A stretch of 17,998 nucleotides of DNA from Nitrospinota bacterium (GTDB lineage: Bacteria; Tectomicrobia; Entotheonellia; J063). Made by a program: the position numbers and the translations under genes. This document shows positions 4,591 to 17,998 of this stretch, piece after piece. The DNA is taken from positions 1 to 17,998 of the forward strand of contig RFHZ01000258.1 in assembly GCA_003696125.1 (NCBI GenBank), read 5' to 3'. The notes under the pieces were generated by a model that saw nothing but the letters and a program-made list of their open reading frames with translations, searched no databases and was not told the DNA's origin. The first letter of the stretch is position 1; each line of letters begins with the position of its first letter.

Positions 4591-5694
4591 ATGCGTTGGA
4601 CACGAAACCTCCTCTTCATCCTCCTGCTTCTGGTGAGTATGGGTACCCTCGCCCTGGCCGCCCGGGTAAAAGACATCACCACCATTGCCGGGGTGCGGGA
4701 GAATCAACTGATCGGGTACGGGCTGGTGGTCGGCCTGGATGGTACCGGTGATCGGGGAGGAACCGGATTCACCACGCAGACCATAGCCAGCATGCTGCGG
4801 GGACTCGGGATTACCGTAGACCCTGCCGTCATCAAGGTCAGAAACGTGGCGGCCGTGATGGTCACGGCTCACCTCCCCCCTTTTGCCCGGCCCGGCAGCC
4901 GCATCGATGTGGTGGTCTCCTCCATCGGGGATGCCAAAAGCCTGCAGGGGGGCACGCTGCTCCTCACCCCGCTACGTGCCCCGGACGGCAAGATCTACGC
5001 CATGGCCCAGGGACCGATCTCCATCGGAGGATTCGCCTTTAGCGGGAATGCCGGGGGAGGGGTACAGCGCAACCATCCTACCGTCGGGCACATCGCCGGG
5101 GGAGCCATCGTGGAGCGGGCGGTACCGGTGCAGTTTGCCGGTCGAGACAGCCTGACCCTGTTACTCAACGAGCCCGACTTTACCACAAGCTTTCGCCTGG
5201 TCGAGACGATCAACCGGCAGTTCGGTGCTGCCGTTGCCCAGGCGGTGGATAGCGGGACGGTAACTGTCCGCATCCCGGAACCGTATCGCCAGAACGTGGT
5301 GGAGTTTGTCTCCACCATAGAGAACATGGAGCTGACCCCGGATACGGTGGCCAGGGTGGTGCTGGATGAACGTACCGGTACCGTGGTGATCGGGGAGAAC
5401 GTGCGCATCTCTACCGTAGCCATCGCCCATGGGAATCTCAGTATCGAGATCCGCGAGACCCAGCAGGTCTCCCAACCTCCTCCCCTCTCCAGCGGACAGA
5501 CGGTGGTCACGCCAGAGACCCAGATCCAGGTACAGGAGGAGAAGGCCAATCTCCTGGTGCTGCCGCAGGCGGTCACCATCCGCGATCTGGTCAAGGCCCT
5601 CAACGCTATCGGTGTGACTCCCCGTGACCTGATCGCCATCTTCCAGGCCATTAAAGCGGCTGGAGCACTCCATGCCCGATTGGAGATCATGTGA
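4591..5694 (+). CDS. flgI: Flagellar P-ring protein FlgI
   Basis: This 367-aa periplasmic protein is the usual family length (about 365). It polymerises into the P ring in the peptidoglycan layer. The signal peptide ends near residue 23 (LALA before ARVKD). The mature start, RVKDITTIAGVRENQLIGYG followed by LVVGLDGTGDRGG, is diagnostic. Other landmarks are QTIASMLRGLGI, GGTLLLTPLRAPDGKIYAMAQG, NHPTVGHI, and a C-terminal region with VTIRDLVKALNAIGVTPRDL followed by IAIFQAIKAAGALHARLEIM. A GGGAGCGG Shine-Dalgarno-like sequence lies at 4580-4587. The stop overlaps the flgJ start, so FlgI and the rod-cap protein are translationally coupled. Confidence 0.97.
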   Translation: MRWTRNLLFILLLLVSMGTLALAARVKDITTIAGVRENQLIGYGLVVGLDGTGDRGGTGFTTQTIASMLRGLGITVDPAVIKVRNVAAVMVTAHLPPFARPGSRIDVVVSSIGDAKSLQGGTLLLTPLRAPDGKIYAMAQGPISIGGFAFSGNAGGGVQRNHPTVGHIAGGAIVERAVPVQFAGRDSLTLLLNEPDFTTSFRLVETINRQFGAAVAQAVDSGTVTVRIPEPYRQNVVEFVSTIENMELTPDTVARVVLDERTGTVVIGENVRISTVAIAHGNLSIEIRETQQVSQPPPLSSGQTVVTPETQIQVQEEKANLLVLPQAVTIRDLVKALNAIGVTPRDLIAIFQAIKAAGALHARLEIM

Positions 5695-6515
5695 TGGAAC
5701 GGAGTCCTGTTCTCCCCCCCTCCCTCCTGCTTCAGCCGCCCCTGGAGGCGAAAACCCAGGCCAGCCGGGTCAATCCTCCTGGTCACAGGAACGAGCCGCA
5801 AACGGTGGAAGAAGGGGTGGCCGCCTTTGAAGCCATCCTGATCTTTCAACTCCTCCAGATCATGCGCAAAACCGTACCCCGCTCCGGCCTGTTCGGTACC
5901 GGTTTTGTCCATGATCTCTATACCTCCCTCTTCGATCAGGAGGTAGCCCAGCAGATGGCACAACGCGGGGGATTGGGACTGGCCCCCCTTCTGCTACGAC
6001 AGCTCCAGCAACCCGCTCCTGCACCGGTCACCTCTCCCCCCCAGCAGGCCCTCGCCACCTATCGAAGCCAGATGGAGACGCCAACGCCCGCCTTTACCCT
6101 CCCCATACAGGGCGTGATCTCTTCCCCCTTTGGGTGGCGCCTGGACCCGCTGGACCCGCAACGGGAGCAGTACCATCAAGGAATCGATCTGGCCGCACCA
6201 GAGGGAACGGTGATCCGGGCAGCAGCATCCGGCACGGTCATCTTTAGCGGAAGAAAGGAGGGATACGGCAACCTAGTCATTCTCCAGCATGGAGACGGAT
6301 ACCAGACCTACTATGCCCATAACGCAGAGAACCTGGTCCGGGTAGGAGAGACGGTACAACAGGGACAGCCGATCGGTATAGTCGGGCAGACGGGACGGAC
6401 GACCGGACCGCACCTGCACTTTGAAATCCGCCAGGATGCACGGGTACTTGATCCGGCTCTGTTCTTATTCCAGGCCCGCGCTCTGCAAAAATCTCCTTCC
6501 CAAAAAAGTACTTAA
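5694..6515 (+). CDS. flgJ: FlgJ-type rod-cap protein fused to an M23 peptidoglycan endopeptidase
   Basis: This 273-aa protein joins two domains. Residues about 37-100 are a FlgJ rod-binding domain (AFEAILIFQLLQIMRKTVPR, then LFDQEVAQQMAQRGGLG). A Pro/Gln-rich linker leads to an M23 (LytM-type) metallopeptidase at about 135-255, beginning GVISSPFGWRLDP. The zinc ligands and catalytic His are visible as H161-x3-D165, H209 in YYAHN, and H240-L-H242. In gamma- and betaproteobacterial FlgJ the second domain is a glucosaminidase, so this is a different wall-cutting chemistry (peptide cross-bridges rather than glycan). The ATG at 5694 is in a TGATG overlap with flgI; a GTG one codon earlier is also possible. 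The stop codon overlaps the -35 of the next promoter. Confidence 0.9.
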   Translation: MERSPVLPPSLLLQPPLEAKTQASRVNPPGHRNEPQTVEEGVAAFEAILIFQLLQIMRKTVPRSGLFGTGFVHDLYTSLFDQEVAQQMAQRGGLGLAPLLLRQLQQPAPAPVTSPPQQALATYRSQMETPTPAFTLPIQGVISSPFGWRLDPLDPQREQYHQGIDLAAPEGTVIRAAASGTVIFSGRKEGYGNLVILQHGDGYQTYYAHNAENLVRVGETVQQGQPIGIVGQTGRTTGPHLHFEIRQDARVLDPALFLFQARALQKSPSQKST

Positions 6516-9262: not shown

Positions 9263-11365
9263 ATGCGGGTTACCAATACCATCATCTTTAATAACGCCCT
9301 GACCAACATCCGCATGCACAACGAACGCCTGCTGCGTGCCCAGCAAGAGGTCGGATCAGGGAAGAAGCTCCTGCAGCCCTCCGATGATCCGGTGGCCACC
9401 CGTCGTATCCTGAGCCTGCGCCGGATCTTGCGCTCGGTGGAGCAGTTCCAGCGGAACGGTACCACCATCGCCACCTTATTACAGGAGACGGACACGGCAC
9501 TGGGAGGGGTGGAGGACATCCTGTTGCGGGCCAAGACCCTGGCCCTCTCCGCGGTGAACGATACGGTAAACCCTGAGAACAGGGCGGCAATGGCTCTGGA
9601 GGTGGGACACCTCCTGGAGCAGGCACTGCAGCTCGGGAACACCATGGTGGAAGGACGCTACATCTTTGCCGGCCGGGCCACCGATCAGGCTCCTTTCTCT
9701 GCCCAGGCCATAGCGGAGAGCAGGGGACAGGGGTTGACCACATCCGGAACCCTCACCCCTTTGGGGGAGGATGAACTCATCATCAACGGCATCACCATTC
9801 GTGCACCGCAGGGGACAGACGATACGGTATCGACCTCAGACAACGCGGCCAGTGCCCTGGCCCTGGCTGCTGTCATCAATGAGGCCAGCGCGATGACCGG
9901 TGTGCGGGCCGAAGCCTCCACCACCCTCTCCCTGACCATCACCCGCTTTGGAGACCTCGGCGGGGACAACCTGCGGATCAACGGGGTGGCGATCACCGGA
10001 ACCATAACCGATGCCGCTTCCCTGGTCGATGCCATCAATGCTGCCCGTATCGACGGGGTCTTCGCCTCCTCCAGTGGTCCCGATAACCTGACCCTCACCG
10101 CACCGGATGGGCGGAACATCCAACTGCAGACCGACGGGCTGGCCAGTGGAGGCCTGAGCTTTGCCGAGTTTGATCTGGGGGGAGGGGTGGCCTCAGACCA
10201 GACCGCCACCGGTAGCGTCACCCTGCGGGCAGATACCGCCTTCACCATCGGGGGATTGCAACCGGAAAAGGCCGGATTCCGTGCTGGCGTGGTTCCCCTG
10301 AGCGTCCAGTTCAACGGGGATAACGGCCTGCTCTCCATGGAGATGAACAGCGGGCAGCGGCTGCCGGTGAACGTGACCGCCTCAAGGTTTCTGGTCACCG
10401 ATCTCCGTCCCCTCCTCGACCGGGATACCCCGCTGGCTGCCCTGCAAAAAGGGGAGGGGATCAGCACCGGATCGATTCAGATCACCGATCGCGCCGGGAA
10501 CACCGCCGTCGTCGATCTCTCCGGTGCGGTCACGGTAGGGGATGTACTCGATGCCATCTCAGGGGCAGGACTCAACGTCTCTGCCACCATCAATGAGACC
10601 GGAGACGGCCTGCTGCTCATCGATAACACGGCAGCACCGGTCCAGAACCTGATCGTTACCGAAGTGGGCGGAGGGAGCACGGCACACGATCTGGGCATTG
10701 CCGGTGAGCGCGCGGGGAACCTGGTAGGGACTCCCCTCTCCCCGGTGCTGACCCCGGCCACGCCCCTCTCCTCCCTCTACGAAGGGAGAGGAGTCACCCC
10801 GACCGCCATCCGCATCGTGAACGGCCCGCACGAGGTCGAAGTGGACCTGAGTGAGGCCCAGACGGTCGGGGATGTGCTGGAAGCGATCAACACGGCCGGT
10901 GCCGATGTCACCGCCCAGATCAACACGGCCGGGACGGCGATCGATGTCCGCTCCAACGATGCGAACACGGTTGCCGTGGTGACCGAGGTCGATGGAGGGA
11001 GCACGGCCTCTGATCTGGGGATACAGGGGGCGCAGGATGCGTTCAAGACCCTGAGCCTCCTGCAGGAAGCCCTGCAGAAGAACGATCGCTATGCCCTGGA
11101 AGCGCTTCTCTCTACCATCGATCTCAATGTAGACCAGGTTCTGGGAATCCGGGCCGACGTGGGAACGCGGATGAATCGGGTCGCCATGGTCAGCCAGGGA
11201 CTCGACGATCTCCACTTCTCGACCACTTCCTATCTTTCCCAGACCGAAGATGCGGACATGAGCGAGGCGGTCGCCTATCTCTCGCAGTTGACGACCATGT
11301 TTCAGGCCTCCCTGGCCACAACGGCCCGGATCATGCAGCCGACATTACTCGACTTCTTACGATAG
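9263..11365 (+). CDS. flgL: Flagellar hook-associated protein 3 FlgL, greatly enlarged
   Basis: This second hook-filament junction protein is 700 aa where typical FlgL is about 300. The N-terminal flagellin-like helical region ([38 protein letters not shown], to VEGRYIFAG near residue 139) and the C-terminal helix ([20 protein letters not shown], ending LLDFLR) are conserved. The roughly 450 extra residues in between include a flagellin hook IN-type motif (INGVAI...SLVDAINAA, about 239-270). They also include two tandem homologous blocks, about 380-481 and 495-589, each ending in TEV-GGST-DLGI. These would form surface-exposed domains at the junction. AGGGG precedes the ATG, 8 nt after flgK. 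The frame is intact. Confidence 0.93.
10400..11029 (+). repeat. Internal duplication encoding two homologous domains in FlgL
   Basis: Two adjacent blocks (10400-10705 and 10742-11029) encode similar ~95-100 residue modules. Shared landmarks in order are a TPL-x-xL-x-x-G-x-G start, a VDLS...TVGDVL-x-AI segment, and a TEV-GGST-x-x-DLGI end. The DNA copies are clearly diverged, so the duplication is old and selected at protein level. Confidence 0.8.
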
Positions 11366-12173: not shown

Positions 12174-12201
12174 TCAAGCGATGAGCCTGAATTGCCGATA
12201 G
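12174..12201 (+). promoter_or_regulatory. Candidate sigma28 promoter upstream of flaG
   Basis: GCCGATAG (12194-12201) matches the sigma28 -10 at 7 of 8 bases. Using the same 12-nt spacer as the flgM promoter, the -35 would be TCAAGCGA (12174-12181), only 4 of 8. This is a moderate candidate that would make flaG and the next gene separately expressed late genes. Confidence 0.5.
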
Positions 12202-12249: not shown

Positions 12250-12627
12250 ATGGATGGCGCAATATCCGCGGTAAATCCTTCTGGGATTCCTCCTTCTCCC
12301 GAAGTCTCACCCATCGGGAAGAGTACAGAAGCCCCCAGGCAACGGGCAGAGCGGGTACCACCAGAAGAGATCCGCTCTGGGGCGAGACGAGAACGCGTAG
12401 GACGAAAGGATACGGTGGAGGCGGTCGATTTTGCCAACACAGTAGCCGAGTTCTTCGACAAGAAGATCTCTTTCAGCTACGACGAGCGGATCGATCAGGT
12501 CATCGTCAAGGTGGTGGAGGAGGATACAGAAGAGGTGATCCGCCAGATTCCCCCGGAGGAGATCGTGGAACTGGTGGCCAAGCTGCGCGAGGACTTCCGC
12601 GGCTTGATCTTCAACCATACCGGGTAA
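12250..12627 (+). CDS. flaG: FlaG family flagellar protein
   Basis: This 125-aa protein has the FlaG domain in its second half. It includes a VDFANTVAEFFDKKISFSYD stretch, then IDQVIVKVVEEDTEEVIRQI, PPEEIVELVAKLRE and a GLIFN end. FlaG proteins occur beside flagellin or filament-cap genes and affect filament length in some bacteria. The N-terminal half is rich in Pro, Ser and charged residues and probably disordered. GGAGGAG (12239-12245) precedes the ATG. Its gene follows the csrA-fliW pair after 103 nt that contain the inverted repeat and a possible sigma28 promoter. A metalloprotease-like gene starts 17 nt downstream. No flagellin gene is present in the window. Confidence 0.88.
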   Translation: MDGAISAVNPSGIPPSPEVSPIGKSTEAPRQRAERVPPEEIRSGARRERVGRKDTVEAVDFANTVAEFFDKKISFSYDERIDQVIVKVVEEDTEEVIRQIPPEEIVELVAKLREDFRGLIFNHTG

Positions 12628-12644: not shown

Positions 12645-13346
12645 ATGGAAGTCAGCGGTCCAGGATGGCAGAGTATCCACCTCCCCTGGGAGCAGGATCA
12701 GAGGGCGGCGCAGGTAGCAGAGCGTATTCCGGTCCGGGTAACCGCAACGAGGGATCGCGTCTCCCTCTCTGAGCAGGGAAAGGAGACAGGAAGAGAAGCG
12801 AGCGGGCAGCCTGCTGCCCCGCAGCAGGGAGGAGGCAGGGGACTCGATCCCAGGGAGGAGCGGATCGTCGAAGAGCTACGCCAGCGCGATCAGGAAGTGC
12901 GCGCCCATGAGCAGGCCCATCTGATGGCGGCCGGCCGCTACGCACGGGGAGGCCCGCGTTTTACCTATCAGATCGGCCCGGATGGGAAGCGGTATGCGGT
13001 CAGCGGGGAGGTGCCGATCGATGTAAGCCCGGTTCCTGGAGACCCGGAAGCCACCATACAAAAGGCCGCCACGATCCGGCGGGCAGCCCTGGCGCCGGCG
13101 CATCCCTCCAGCGCCGACCTGGCCATTGCCGCCAGAGCAGCCCAGATGGCAGCTCAGGCTCAGCAGGAACTGCTCCAGGCCAGGAGCGAACACCGGGTGA
13201 AAGAGGCTGCCCTGACCGCAGAGGGAAAGGCAGGGACCATTGCCGACCCGGGTACCACCCCTATCACTCCTCCCCAGATCCTCATAGAGATGGTCGCCTA
13301 TCAGCAGAACACCCCTCCGGCCTCCCTGATCAGTATCACGGTCTGA
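12645..13346 (+). CDS. Putative zinc metalloprotease, SprA-related / CJM1_0395-like family
   Basis: This 233-aa protein carries an HExxH motif, H88-E-Q-A-H92, inside a conserved block. The block includes QEVRAHEQAHLMAAGRYARG, FTYQIGPDGKRYAVSGEVPI and PEATIQKAATIRRAALAPAH, then an Ala-rich helix with SSADLAIAARAAQMAAQAQ. This matches the SprA-related putative metalloprotease family as I know it. No signal peptide is evident, and the first ~60 residues are low-complexity. The C terminus (EMVAYQQNTPPASLISITV) is separate from the core. The biological role is unknown. Placement 17 nt after flaG suggests a late flagellar or surface function. The start is weakly supported: only GAGAG lies upstream of ATG 12645, so coupling to flaG is likely. 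Confidence 0.7.
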   Translation: MEVSGPGWQSIHLPWEQDQRAAQVAERIPVRVTATRDRVSLSEQGKETGREASGQPAAPQQGGGRGLDPREERIVEELRQRDQEVRAHEQAHLMAAGRYARGGPRFTYQIGPDGKRYAVSGEVPIDVSPVPGDPEATIQKAATIRRAALAPAHPSSADLAIAARAAQMAAQAQQELLQARSEHRVKEAALTAEGKAGTIADPGTTPITPPQILIEMVAYQQNTPPASLISITV

Positions 13347-13606: not shown

Positions 13607-13846
13607 ATGGCCAAACAAAAGAGGTATCCCTCCCCCATCTCCTCTTTTCTACCTGGGAGGCGACAGCGTTTACAGGACATGCTGGCTCGCGCGATCCGCC
13701 ATCACCGGGCCGGCCACCTTCACCAGGCCGAAACCTTATACCGCCAGGTCTTAGACCAGGATCCCCACCAGGCCGATGCCCTCCATCTCCTGGGGGTGCT
13801 GGCCAGCCAGGCCGGCAGGTATGAGATGGCCATTGCCCTGATATAA
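13607..13846 (+). CDS. Truncated TPR protein (N-terminal fragment of a TPR-glycosyltransferase-like protein)
   Basis: This 79-aa product consists of a basic N terminus and about one and a half TPR units, ending abruptly at YEMAIALI in the middle of a repeat. Its residues 26-79 align without gaps to residues 24-77 of the large TPR-glycosyltransferase downstream, with 28 of 54 positions identical, including an identical HQADALHLLG core. The ATG at 13607 sits 9 nt after GAGGAG (13592-13597); a GTG at 13601 is closer and also possible. No TPR continuation exists after the stop in any frame. The stop itself lies in TAAGGAG, which supplies the ribosome-binding site of the next gene. It may be a remnant left when methyltransferase genes were inserted, or a small functional leader protein. 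Confidence 0.65.
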   Translation: MAKQKRYPSPISSFLPGRRQRLQDMLARAIRHHRAGHLHQAETLYRQVLDQDPHQADALHLLGVLASQAGRYEMAIALI

Positions 13847-13854
13847 GGAGAGCC

Positions 13855-15186
13855 ATGACTATCCAGACATCTTCCAGACCGGAAACCGTGCAGTCCTCGC
13901 CCGAACTGGTAGACCTTGTCAGTGCCTGTCCCTGTCCCGCCTGTGGTCACCAGGTTGCCGTCCCCTTCTATGAGGGCGGTGCCCAGCCCCTGGCCACCCT
14001 GGCCTGGCCCCGGAGCGCAGAGGAGGCGCGATCCATGAAACGTCTCCCCCTGGCGTTCCGGCGCTGTGTGGAGTGTGGTCATGTGTACAACACCGCCTTC
14101 GATTACAAGGAGGTTCCTTACAGCCAAAACCCCAACCGCATGTTTAACCGGGGGAGGCTCTGGCAGGAACACCTCTGCCGGGTCCGCAACCTCATCGTAG
14201 AGCGCCTGCCTCCCTATCCAACTGTCATCGAGATCGGCTGTGGAGACGGGCACTTCTTACAGGCCCTGGCCCAGGCCGGACCTGCCGGGTACTATATCGG
14301 ATTCGACCCGAACAGTGCAGCCGGAACAGCCACGCATCAGGTAGAGATTCATCGTACCCTCTTCGATCCCCTTACCCATCTGGCCGAGTACCGACCAGAT
14401 ATGATCATCAGCCGCCATGTCCTCGAACACCTGATGAATCCACTCGGCTTCATGCAACTGCTCGCCTTTGCCGCTAGCTGGCATGAGGTCGAAGCCGACC
14501 TCTTCCTGGAAGTCCCCTGTATCGATCGGGTCTTCGAGACCGGACGCACCACCGACTTCTACTACGAGCACAACTCGCACTTCACCACAACCTCCTTCAC
14601 CCACCTGTTACAGCGGTGCGCCGACGTGGTGGAGCTTGTGGAGCGGGGATACAACGATGAAGTGATCTATGGCCTTGCCCGTATCGGTGTGCATCCTGCC
14701 CAGGCTCGATGTGCCCGTGAGGCCATCGCCTTCCGGAACCAGGCCCTGGCTATGCGCACCACGATTCGCCAGACCCTGGAACAGTATATTGCTGCCGGCA
14801 AGACCATTGCCATCTGGGGCGGAACAGGGAAGGCAGCCGCCCTGATCAATTCGTTGGGACTCGATGCCGACCGCTTTCCCCTGGTGGTCGATTCTGATCC
14901 GGAAAAGGTGGGGACATTTGTGCCCGGGACAGGCCAGGAAATCCGCTTTCGCGATCACCTGCTCCTGCAGCCGGCAGACATCATCCTGATAGCCACGCAA
15001 TGGCGTGCCCAGGATATCGTCCTGGAGATAGAACAACACCATATCCCCTATCAACAGATTCTGCTTGAATACCGGGGACGGCTGGTCGATTACTTTGCCG
15101 ATGAGCATCCGTACAAATTATCAGCCTCAAGGGCTCTGTGTAACGAGAAAGGATCTCACCATGGCCATCACCGCAATCGAGTATAG
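13855..15186 (+). CDS. SAM-dependent C-methyltransferase with N-terminal zinc finger and C-terminal Rossmann-like domain
   Basis: This 443-aa protein has the three-part layout of sugar C-methyltransferases (TylCIII/NovU type). A zinc-binding module has C25-P-C27-P-A-C30-G and R-R-C71-V-E-C74-G-H-V-Y-N. A class I SAM domain has motif I IEIGCGDGHFL (residues 125-135), IGFDPN and SRHVLEHL. The C-terminal domain from about 318 to 420 starts IAIWGGTGKAAALI and contains VVDSDPEKVGTFVPGTG. Known relatives methylate NDP-deoxysugars; here a sugar destined for flagellin or a surface glycan is a reasonable inference. AAGGAG, formed partly by the upstream TAA, lies 5 nt before the ATG. The last 26 nt overlap the next gene, and the final residues (KGSHHGHHRNRV) look like a read-through tail. 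Confidence 0.85.
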   Translation: MTIQTSSRPETVQSSPELVDLVSACPCPACGHQVAVPFYEGGAQPLATLAWPRSAEEARSMKRLPLAFRRCVECGHVYNTAFDYKEVPYSQNPNRMFNRGRLWQEHLCRVRNLIVERLPPYPTVIEIGCGDGHFLQALAQAGPAGYYIGFDPNSAAGTATHQVEIHRTLFDPLTHLAEYRPDMIISRHVLEHLMNPLGFMQLLAFAASWHEVEADLFLEVPCIDRVFETGRTTDFYYEHNSHFTTTSFTHLLQRCADVVELVERGYNDEVIYGLARIGVHPAQARCAREAIAFRNQALAMRTTIRQTLEQYIAAGKTIAIWGGTGKAAALINSLGLDADRFPLVVDSDPEKVGTFVPGTGQEIRFRDHLLLQPADIILIATQWRAQDIVLEIEQHHIPYQQILLEYRGRLVDYFADEHPYKLSASRALCNEKGSHHGHHRNRV

Positions 15187-15937
15187 CATCTTCTCCGCCC
15201 TCCGCCAGCAACAGGTGCTTCCTCCCGCTCCCCGGGTCTTAGAGCTGGGTGAAGCGAACTGGTACGGCGATGTCCCGCTCCAACAACTGGTCCAGGATAT
15301 CCGGCTCTATGTCAGTGACGAGCCTGCAAGGAACCGCCTCCTTAGCCAGATCCAGCACCTGGCCGATACCCAGACCCGGTACTGGCTCTTTGATCTCGCC
15401 AAAATCTTCTACACGGTCTTTCTCAACTACTCCTCTATCACCGCCATCGACCTGCACGGGACCCCTGCGGCCCTGCGGTACGATCTCAACTATCCGGTCC
15501 ACCTCGATACCCGTTTCGATATGGTGTTGAATCTCGGAACCGCAGAACATATCTTTAACGTCTTTCAATTCTTCAAAACGGTACACGACTTAACCGCTCC
15601 AGGCGGGCTCATGGTGCATGGGATGCCGTTTACCGGCTGGTACGACCACGGCTTCTACAACTTCCAGCCGACCTTTTACTGGGATCTTGCCCTGCAGAAC
15701 CGGTACACCATACTGGCCCTGATTTATGCCCAACTCTCCCCCTTCAGCCTGACCCAGCTCCATACCAGAGAGCAGATCAGTAAAATGGTCACCGAAGGCC
15801 AGATTGCACCCAATGCTCTCCTGTATGCCGTATTCAGGAAAGGGGACGAAGAGCAGGATTTTCTCCCCCCCATGCAGGGGTATTATGCCGGTATCCTTTC
15901 AGAAACGTGTCGCCAGGCCTGGCATAAACTCCGCTGA
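15161..15937 (+). CDS. Class I SAM-dependent methyltransferase-like protein
   Basis: This 258-aa protein has a Rossmann methyltransferase pattern. Motif I is RVLELGEANWYGD (residues 25-37), AIDLHG follows as an acidic second strand, FDMVLNLGTAEHIFNVFQ is the motif-IV-like region, and LTAPGGLMVHGMPF is the post-motif strand. The substrate is unknown, and the AEHIFN segment is typical of uncharacterised methyltransferases in surface-glycan loci. GAAAGGA lies upstream of ATG 15161. The gene begins inside the last 26 nt of the zinc-finger methyltransferase gene, so the two are translationally coupled. The frame is open further upstream to 15065, but those residues are a shadow of the previous gene. 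It is followed 43 nt later by the TPR-glycosyltransferase gene. Confidence 0.75.
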   Translation: MAITAIEYSIFSALRQQQVLPPAPRVLELGEANWYGDVPLQQLVQDIRLYVSDEPARNRLLSQIQHLADTQTRYWLFDLAKIFYTVFLNYSSITAIDLHGTPAALRYDLNYPVHLDTRFDMVLNLGTAEHIFNVFQFFKTVHDLTAPGGLMVHGMPFTGWYDHGFYNFQPTFYWDLALQNRYTILALIYAQLSPFSLTQLHTREQISKMVTEGQIAPNALLYAVFRKGDEEQDFLPPMQGYYAGILSETCRQAWHKLR

Positions 15938-15980
15938 CCGGGCAACCACAGATCGGTACACGCAATATGGGGACTCAACC

Positions 15981-17998
15981 ATGTCGCAAAGGAGTCGGAA
16001 GCAGCCTATAACCCAGATCAGGCCGTTGGCGGGTCCAGGGGGGACTCTCCTGGCCAAGGCCCAACACGCCTACCAGGGAGGAGATCTGGCCCAAGCAGAA
16101 CGTCTTACCCGCCAGATCCTGCAGGGAAATCCCCACCAGGCCGACGCCCTGCACCTGCTCGGCCTGATCGCCCATCGGGTCGGCAAACAGGAGATTGCCC
16201 TCGCCTACCTCCGGCAGGCCATCAGTATCAACGACACGAACTGGGCCTTCTTCAACAACCTGGGAGAGGTGTACCGGGCCTTGGGACAGCCAGATGAGGC
16301 GATGGCCAGCTACCAGCAGGCCATCCGGCTCAACCCTAACCGGGCCGAACCCTATATCAACCTCGGCACCATCCTCCAGAACCAGGGCAGGATAGAGGAG
16401 GCGATCGACTGCTATCGACAGGCGGCAAAGCAACAGCCGGGCTGTGCCCTCGCCCACCTCAATCTGGGAAACGTGTTGCGCCTGCAGGGAAACCTGGAGG
16501 GAGCAATAACCCACTATCAACACGCCCTGGCCCTGCAACCACATGCGGCCGAAATCCACATGGATCTGGGGAACCTGTTCCAGACGCAGGGACGGCTGGC
16601 AGAAGCCATCAGGTACTACCGGCAGGCTCTGGCCCTGAAACCAGATTACGCCGAGGCCCATGCCAATCTGGGGACCGCGCTGCGAACGCAGGGAGAACTC
16701 GATGCCGCCGTCCAGCACCTGCAACAGGCTCTGCGACTCAAACCAGGCTTTGCCATCGCTTACCTGAACCTCGGATTGACTCTGCGGGCCCAAAAGAAGC
16801 TTGCCGAGGCAGAAAAGGCCTTGCGACAGGCAGTCCGGCTGGCCCCCAGCTCTGCCGTAGCCTACAATAATCTCGGTATCGTGCTCCAGGACCAGGGGAG
16901 ATTGAGGGAAGCGATCGCCTGCTACCGGCAAGCACTCCAACTCCGTCCCCACTACGCCAAGGCCCATGCCAATCTGGGGGTTGCCCTGCAGACACAGGGG
17001 GATATCGAAGCGGCCATCTCCTGCTTCCAGAAGGCGTTACACCTGCAGCCCGGCTTTGCAGAGGCGCACAACAACCTGGGACTGGCCCTGCAGTTTCAAG
17101 GGAGAGTCCCCGAAGCGCTGGCGAGCTTCCAGCAGGCGCTCCGGTTGCGGCCGCACTTCGTAGAGGCCCACTGGAATCGAGCCCTGGCCTGGCTTCTACT
17201 CGGAAATTTCCGGCAGGGATGGGAGGAATACGAGTGGCGATGGCGACGCAAAGAGACCCCACCCCGCTCCTTCCCCCAGCCCTCATGGGACGGTACCCCC
17301 CTGCAGGGAAAGACCATCCTGGTCTATGCCGAGCAGGGACTGGGAGATACCATCCAGTTCGTGCGCTACCTCCCCCTGGTCCAGGCCCGGGGAGGACGGG
17401 TACTCTTCGAATGCCAGCCCGGTCTGGCACCGCTGCTCCAGCGCTGCCAGGGGTTCGACGAACTCTTTGAACGGTCATCCGGCAACAGCTCTCAACACCC
17501 CTTTGATGTCCACATCCCCCTGTTGAGCCTTCCCCGCATCTTTCAGACCACCCTGGAGACGATCCCGGCTGCGGTTCCCTATCTCTATCCCGACCCTGTG
17601 CTGGTGGAGAAGTGGGGAAACCGGCTCGGCCAGGAACCCGGGTTTAAGATCGGGATCTGCTGGCAGGGAAACCCGCAACACCGTCGTGACCGCTTCCGCT
17701 CCCTCCCCCTCCGCTGCTTTGCTCCCCTTACCCGGATCGACGGGGTACGGGTGTATAGCTTACAAAAAGGGGCAGGAACAGAGCAGTTGCAGGAACTCCC
17801 GACCGGCATGAGGGTGCACGATCTGGGGAAGGAGCTGGATGAGGAGACCGGCCTTTTCATGGATACGGCCGCGGTCATGATGCACCTGGATCTGGTCATC
17901 ACCATTGATACGGCCATCGCCCACCTGGCAGGAGCCCTGGGCGTTCCGGTATGGCTACTCCTCTCCTCTGCCCCGGACTGGCGCTGGCTCCTGGATCG
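15981..17998 (+). CDS. TPR-repeat glycosyltransferase (3' partial)
   Basis: The frame is open from the ATG to the end of the window (672 codons, no stop). Residues about 22-427 are eleven full TPR units plus a partial twelfth, in strict 34-residue register from residue 54 onward. Most units have the NLG...QG...EAI...YRQAL...P consensus. After a W-x-x-Y-E-W-R-W segment comes a glycosyltransferase fold with ILVYAEQGLGDTIQFVRYLP (near 449), KIGICWQGNPQHRRDRFRSL, and ITIDTAIAHLAGALGVPVW (about 641-659). These resemble the GT9/GT41-like domain of TPR-glycosyltransferase proteins. Such enzymes are often encoded beside flagellar or surface-protein genes and probably transfer sugars to proteins, with the TPR superhelix binding the acceptor. 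The Shine-Dalgarno is weak (GGGG about 9 nt upstream). Confidence 0.88.
   Translation, partial: MSQRSRKQPITQIRPLAGPGGTLLAKAQHAYQGGDLAQAERLTRQILQGNPHQADALHLLGLIAHRVGKQEIALAYLRQAISINDTNWAFFNNLGEVYRALGQPDEAMASYQQAIRLNPNRAEPYINLGTILQNQGRIEEAIDCYRQAAKQQPGCALAHLNLGNVLRLQGNLEGAITHYQHALALQPHAAEIHMDLGNLFQTQGRLAEAIRYYRQALALKPDYAEAHANLGTALRTQGELDAAVQHLQQALRLKPGFAIAYLNLGLTLRAQKKLAEAEKALRQAVRLAPSSAVAYNNLGIVLQDQGRLREAIACYRQALQLRPHYAKAHANLGVALQTQGDIEAAISCFQKALHLQPGFAEAHNNLGLALQFQGRVPEALASFQQALRLRPHFVEAHWNRALAWLLLGNFRQGWEEYEWRWRRKETPPRSFPQPSWDGTPLQGKTILVYAEQGLGDTIQFVRYLPLVQARGGRVLFECQPGLAPLLQRCQGFDELFERSSGNSSQHPFDVHIPLLSLPRIFQTTLETIPAAVPYLYPDPVLVEKWGNRLGQEPGFKIGICWQGNPQHRRDRFRSLPLRCFAPLTRIDGVRVYSLQKGAGTEQLQELPTGMRVHDLGKELDEETGLFMDTAAVMMHLDLVITIDTAIAHLAGALGVPVWLLLSSAPDWRWLLD

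Follow-up and report, generated by a model that had tools for sequence, protein, structure and literature searches.

The window analyzed here is the entire 17,998-bp contig (G000:C575) of the draft genome G000, which comprises 990 contigs. On its plus strand, flgG, flgA, flgH, flgI, a flgJ-like gene, flgM and flgN lie 5′ of flgK, which is followed by flgL, csrA (identified by reading the sequence), fliW, flaG, an SprA-related gene, a TPR fragment, two methyltransferase genes (MT1 and MT2), and a TPR-glycosyltransferase (TPR-GT) gene. The features from flaG onwards were as follows:

12174–12201, plus strand: sigma-28-like promoter match 5′ of flaG, with a 16-nt spacer and 2 mismatches
12250–12627, plus strand: flaG (PF03646, 3.6e-21)
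12645–13346, plus strand: SprA-related family gene (PF12118), with a counterpart at the equivalent place in the relative G003
13607–13846, plus strand: TPR fragment (ATG at 13607, stop at 13844–13846), truncated, its approximately 79 aa resembling the N-terminus of a TPR-GT
13855–15186, plus strand: MT1, TylC3/TcaB9-type Zn-binding sugar C-methyltransferase by Pfam and PDB sequence matches, 443 aa
15161–15937, plus strand: MT2, class I SAM methyltransferase, 258 aa, below Pfam cut-offs
15981–17998, plus strand, cut by the contig end: TPR-GT with TPRs and a GT9-like domain, proposed flagellin O-glycosyltransferase

The initial annotation had described MT1, MT2 and the TPR-GT as following late flagellar genes on one strand, and all three are indeed present in this arrangement. 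The 26-nt overlap that it reported between MT1 and MT2 is exact: MT2 starts with an ATG at 15161 and MT1 ends at 15186. Because family matches, synteny with G003, and the existence of approximately 20 full-length MT2 relatives agree, these ORFs are not chance ORFs. The window contained three sigma-28-like matches versus 0.34 expected, and a further match, with a 15-nt spacer, occurs 5′ of fliC elsewhere in G000 (L015). A scan of the window for sigma-70 promoters and terminators yielded counts that were not above chance. No nucleotide-sugar genes, NDP-sugar C-methylation pathway, or polysaccharide genes were found in the window. Among the upstream genes, the one at 5691–6515 encodes an M23 peptidase domain fused to a FlgJ-like N-terminus, replacing the usual glucosaminidase. 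FlgL (9263–11365) is 700 aa long and its G003 counterpart 699 aa (G003:C2:163171–165270), both far above the usual size.

The start ATG of MT1 has AAGGAGAG directly 5′. Pfam searches matched the protein to Methyltransf_23 (2.2e-16) and to Methyltransf_14, the C-methyltransferase C-terminal domain PF08484 (2.3e-14). Among PDB sequences, TcaB9 was the best match (residues 18–395, E = 9.4e-19), followed by other sugar 3-C-methyltransferases. The four-Cys zinc motif (CxxC ... CxxC) is present as C27, C30, C71, and C74, which are invariant in the Leisingera homologs and aligned with TcaB9, and the SAM motif reads EIGCGDG. We take the active-site residues of TcaB9, in their numbering and roles, to be Tyr76, His181, Tyr222, Glu224, and His225. 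By alignment, MT1 keeps equivalents of the last four. Tyr76 is not conserved: a hand alignment of this weakly aligned stretch places a Pro there, and the Tyr is also missing from one Leisingera relative of MT1. Because the Tyr76 equivalent is absent, we call MT1 TcaB9-like only. The earlier designation of MT1 as a sugar C-methyltransferase is accordingly supported at the family level, as a prediction that stops short of a proven 3-C-methyltransferase. With the TcaB9/TylC3-type enzymes (PDB 3ndi, 4e2w–4e33, 5t64, 4rv9), MT1 shares a nearly full-length alignment, the zinc and SAM motifs, the C-terminal domain, and the four active-site equivalents; it differs from them in the Pro and in its flagellar context, theirs being antibiotic. 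The nearest MT1 relatives in annotated plasmids, at approximately 33% identity, lie in a Leisingera CDP-sugar polysaccharide cluster with a glucose-1-phosphate cytidylyltransferase. A search for PF03559, the 2,3-dehydratase that would feed a TylC3 route, returned no match, but the controls were equally silent.

In sequence searches of Pfam, NCBIfam, and PDB, MT2 gave weak matches, and no family was reached at E = 0.001. Its AlphaFold2 model is confident (pLDDT 91), and a fold search with this model returned generic class I SAM methyltransferases (Z up to 12.7), with no family standing out. A scan of genome contigs identified approximately 20 full-length relatives, at 37–53% identity, in Rhodospirillales, Magnetococcales, cyanobacteria, and others. 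The set has the motifs GTxEHxF and HGFYNFQP in common; most of the relatives match Methyltransf_23 weakly, MT2 itself falling under the cut-off. The gene contexts of the relatives were read by eye from translations. The closest relatives occur mostly in non-flagellar loci, among sulfate-activation, phenylacetate-type, and other genes, some of them in cyanobacteria, and no flagellar genes were recognized near those of marine Rhodospirillaceae, cyanobacteria, and others. In marine Rhodospirillaceae (L036, L038, L039, and L042, around 10001), the relatives occupy a conserved site adjoining sulfate-activation genes, where TPR-GTs adjoin them in some species only.

A TPR-GT or TPR-methyltransferase lies close to the MT2 relative in L035, L039, L042, L043, L045, L046, and L058. 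A GT9-like TPR-GT was found within 5 kb of the MT2 relative in 5 of 23 genomes, against approximately 0.8 matches expected from density by a hand calculation. The association between MT2 and TPR-GTs is nevertheless modest because these cases represent two or three independent lineages. In L046 (10702–12786) and L058 (419–2323), a TPR protein with a methyltransferase domain is encoded immediately 3′ of the MT2 relative. We also considered whether MT1 and MT2 form a conserved pair. This idea was rejected, as no homolog of MT1 was detected in the vicinity of the examined MT2 loci; in the genomes of these MT2 relatives, the closest match to MT1 is 29% identical. MT2 points to an unannotated methyltransferase family. 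That it is the founder of an undescribed family that tailors TPR-GT-made glycans in several phyla, and that together with the TcaB9-type enzyme it would yield a doubly methylated, branched flagellin sugar, is a speculative and rather doubtful extension.

The TPR-GT extends for at least 672 aa from the ATG at 15981. It is incomplete because the window is the whole contig and the assembly end cuts the ORF. The protein contains at least nine TPR_1 stretches followed by a C-terminal glycosyltransferase domain. This domain matched Glyco_transf_9 weakly (7e-05, barely past the cut-off), and GT9 heptosyltransferases topped a fold search with its model (pLDDT 71). A TPR N-terminus and a predicted GT-B C-terminus are thereby combined in a single protein. 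Assignment of the domain to GT41 (OGT-like) was rejected: the sequence similarity to OGT stems from the TPRs, and the fold matches favor GT9. G000 encodes one TPR-GT of this family. Other bacteria encode up to 46, often far from flagellar genes, and relatives in Azospirillum, Burkholderiaceae, and others have varied gene contexts. With numerous copies in varied contexts in other genomes, the family is not flagellin-specific by itself. In Azospirillum ramasamyi, a TPR-GT of approximately 44% identity adjoins a hook gene and flgK.

G003, which belongs to the same class, has a matching flagellar gene order, with a TPR-GT ortholog (58% identity in the glycosyltransferase part) immediately 3′ of the SprA-related gene. 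Neither MT1 nor MT2 occurs at the equivalent place. Beyond the ortholog are more TPR-GTs, then fliD and fliC on the opposite strand, followed by a further TPR-GT and a sugar cluster. This cluster encodes a cytidylyltransferase, a Gfo/Idh protein, a DegT aminotransferase (best NCBIfam match PseC, below cut-off), an epimerase, and a GNAT protein; it also encodes NeuB, an asparagine synthase, a WbuX amidotransferase, and, at the end, a methyltransferase. TPR-GTs are here integrated into a late flagellar locus. Of five genomes of the class, two encode both flagellin and this TPR-GT, and the other three encode neither. By its sequence, the TPR fragment of G000 is probably the remnant of a tandem TPR-GT. 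The lack of the methyltransferase pair at this place in G003, together with the truncated TPR-GT start ahead of MT1, indicates that the pair is probably an addition to the locus and suggests that MT1 and MT2 were inserted into a tandem TPR-GT array.

The flagellin of G000 was assembled from two contig ends (L015, 1–655, and L140, 3–2336) that overlap by 26 residues. The resulting protein of 969 aa is identical to the 965-aa flagellin of G003 at 698 positions (72%). Its center is a long region with repeated KAGSxL-like segments. Ser and Thr make up 27% of the central part of this flagellin versus 19% for FlgL. G000 also encodes the pseudaminic acid synthase PseI, on contig C340, at 499.5 bits versus an equivalog cut-off of 340. 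The same contig carries the C-terminal part of PseG fused to a GNAT domain, a cytidylyltransferase, a methyltransferase, and a glycosyltransferase, the last recognized by eye. Maf (PF01973) had no match in G000 or G003; both genomes are drafts, and only archaeal controls gave matches.

These features resemble those of FlmG of Caulobacter crescentus, a proven flagellin O-glycosyltransferase with TPR and GT-B parts that acts with pseudaminic acid and without Maf (PMC7591256). The two systems have in common the soluble TPR N-terminus and the GT-B C-terminus, a pseudaminic acid synthase in the genome, the lack of a detected Maf, and a flagellar link (PMC7591256). The likeness is one of domain layout and gene content. 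Unlike FlmG, the G000 TPR-GT is encoded at the 3′ end of a late flagellar locus. Nor is a methyltransferase described for the FlmG system (PMC7591256), whereas the G000 locus has two beside the glycosyltransferase. Excerpts of the respective papers describe SAM-methyltransferases in the flagellin glycosylation islands of Geobacillus (FGI; PMC5109656), in the Shewanella sfm cluster (PMC3765264), and in the b-type flagellin glycosylation island of Pseudomonas aeruginosa PAO1 (PMC11833859). In these excerpts, as in G000, such methyltransferases lie beside flagellin-modification genes, and methylated flagellin modifications are demonstrated for some of the systems (PMC5109656, PMC3765264, PMC11833859). 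According to the same excerpts, the Geobacillus islands use Maf or other glycosyltransferases (PMC5109656), and a TPR-GT with a TcaB9-type and a second methyltransferase is described for none of the three (PMC5109656, PMC3765264, PMC11833859). In our literature searches, flagellin glycosylation with a TPR glycosyltransferase was represented essentially by FlmG. The initial annotation knew of no described system of this composition, and we likewise found no description of the exact composition. As to the kind of system, that statement goes too far: FlmG is a described TPR-GT for flagellin (PMC7591256), and the island methyltransferases are described as well (PMC5109656, PMC3765264). The locus would extend FlmG-like flagellin glycosylation, experimentally known from Caulobacter, to a lineage that has been little sampled and whose flagellins are very large.

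We consider it fairly probable that the 3′ end of this late flagellar locus is an FlmG-like flagellin O-glycosylation unit whose glycan is methylated by MT1 and MT2. Newly synthesized flagellin would be bound in the cytoplasm by the TPR domain. Before export, the GT-B, GT9-like domain would glycosylate Ser/Thr residues in the surface domains of the flagellin, using a nucleotide-activated sugar. The donor would probably be CMP-pseudaminic acid or a derivative. MT1, as a TcaB9-type enzyme, may C-methylate the activated keto-sugar, and MT2 may methylate the sugar or its substituent, such that a methylated glycan is attached. The parts of this proposal differ in strength. Synteny and gene content make glycosylation of flagellin by the TPR-GT well supported by context, and this part of the original suggestion of a methylated flagellin sugar holds up. 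The participation of MT1 and MT2 is a weaker proposition drawn from gene position only, because G003 lacks both at this place and MT2 relatives are mostly away from flagellar genes.

Those same observations lend some weight to an alternative in which the TPR-GT glycosylates flagellin and MT1 and MT2 are recent insertions that act elsewhere, on a glycan of the envelope or on some unrelated substrate. It agrees with the truncated TPR-GT start ahead of MT1, as expected after insertion or replacement, and with the presence of MT2 relatives in cyanobacteria. However, MT1, MT2, and the TPR-GT follow one another closely on the same strand, with an overlap, relatives of MT2 lie beside TPR-GTs or TPR-methyltransferases above expectation (in few independent cases), and the flagellin-side sugar cluster of G003 also ends in a methyltransferase. 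We therefore regard this alternative as possible but on the unlikely side.

Two further readings concern what is glycosylated. The cassette might make envelope polysaccharide or O-antigen, its flagellar neighborhood being accidental, as the polysaccharide cluster of the Leisingera MT1 relatives and the classical role of GT9 enzymes as LPS heptosyltransferases would allow. We judge this quite unlikely given its synteny with the flagellin glycosylation region of G003, the co-occurrence with flagellin across the class, the fusion of the TPR domain to the glycosyltransferase, and the absence of polysaccharide genes from the window. It is likewise quite unlikely that the TPR-GT acts on another exported flagellar protein, such as FlgL, instead of flagellin. 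FlgL is encoded in the TPR-GT locus and is enlarged in both genomes, and it is a possible acceptor, as the initial annotation had proposed; nothing supports it specifically, and the 969-aa, Ser/Thr-rich flagellin is the better candidate. Several TPR-GTs flank fliC itself in G003.
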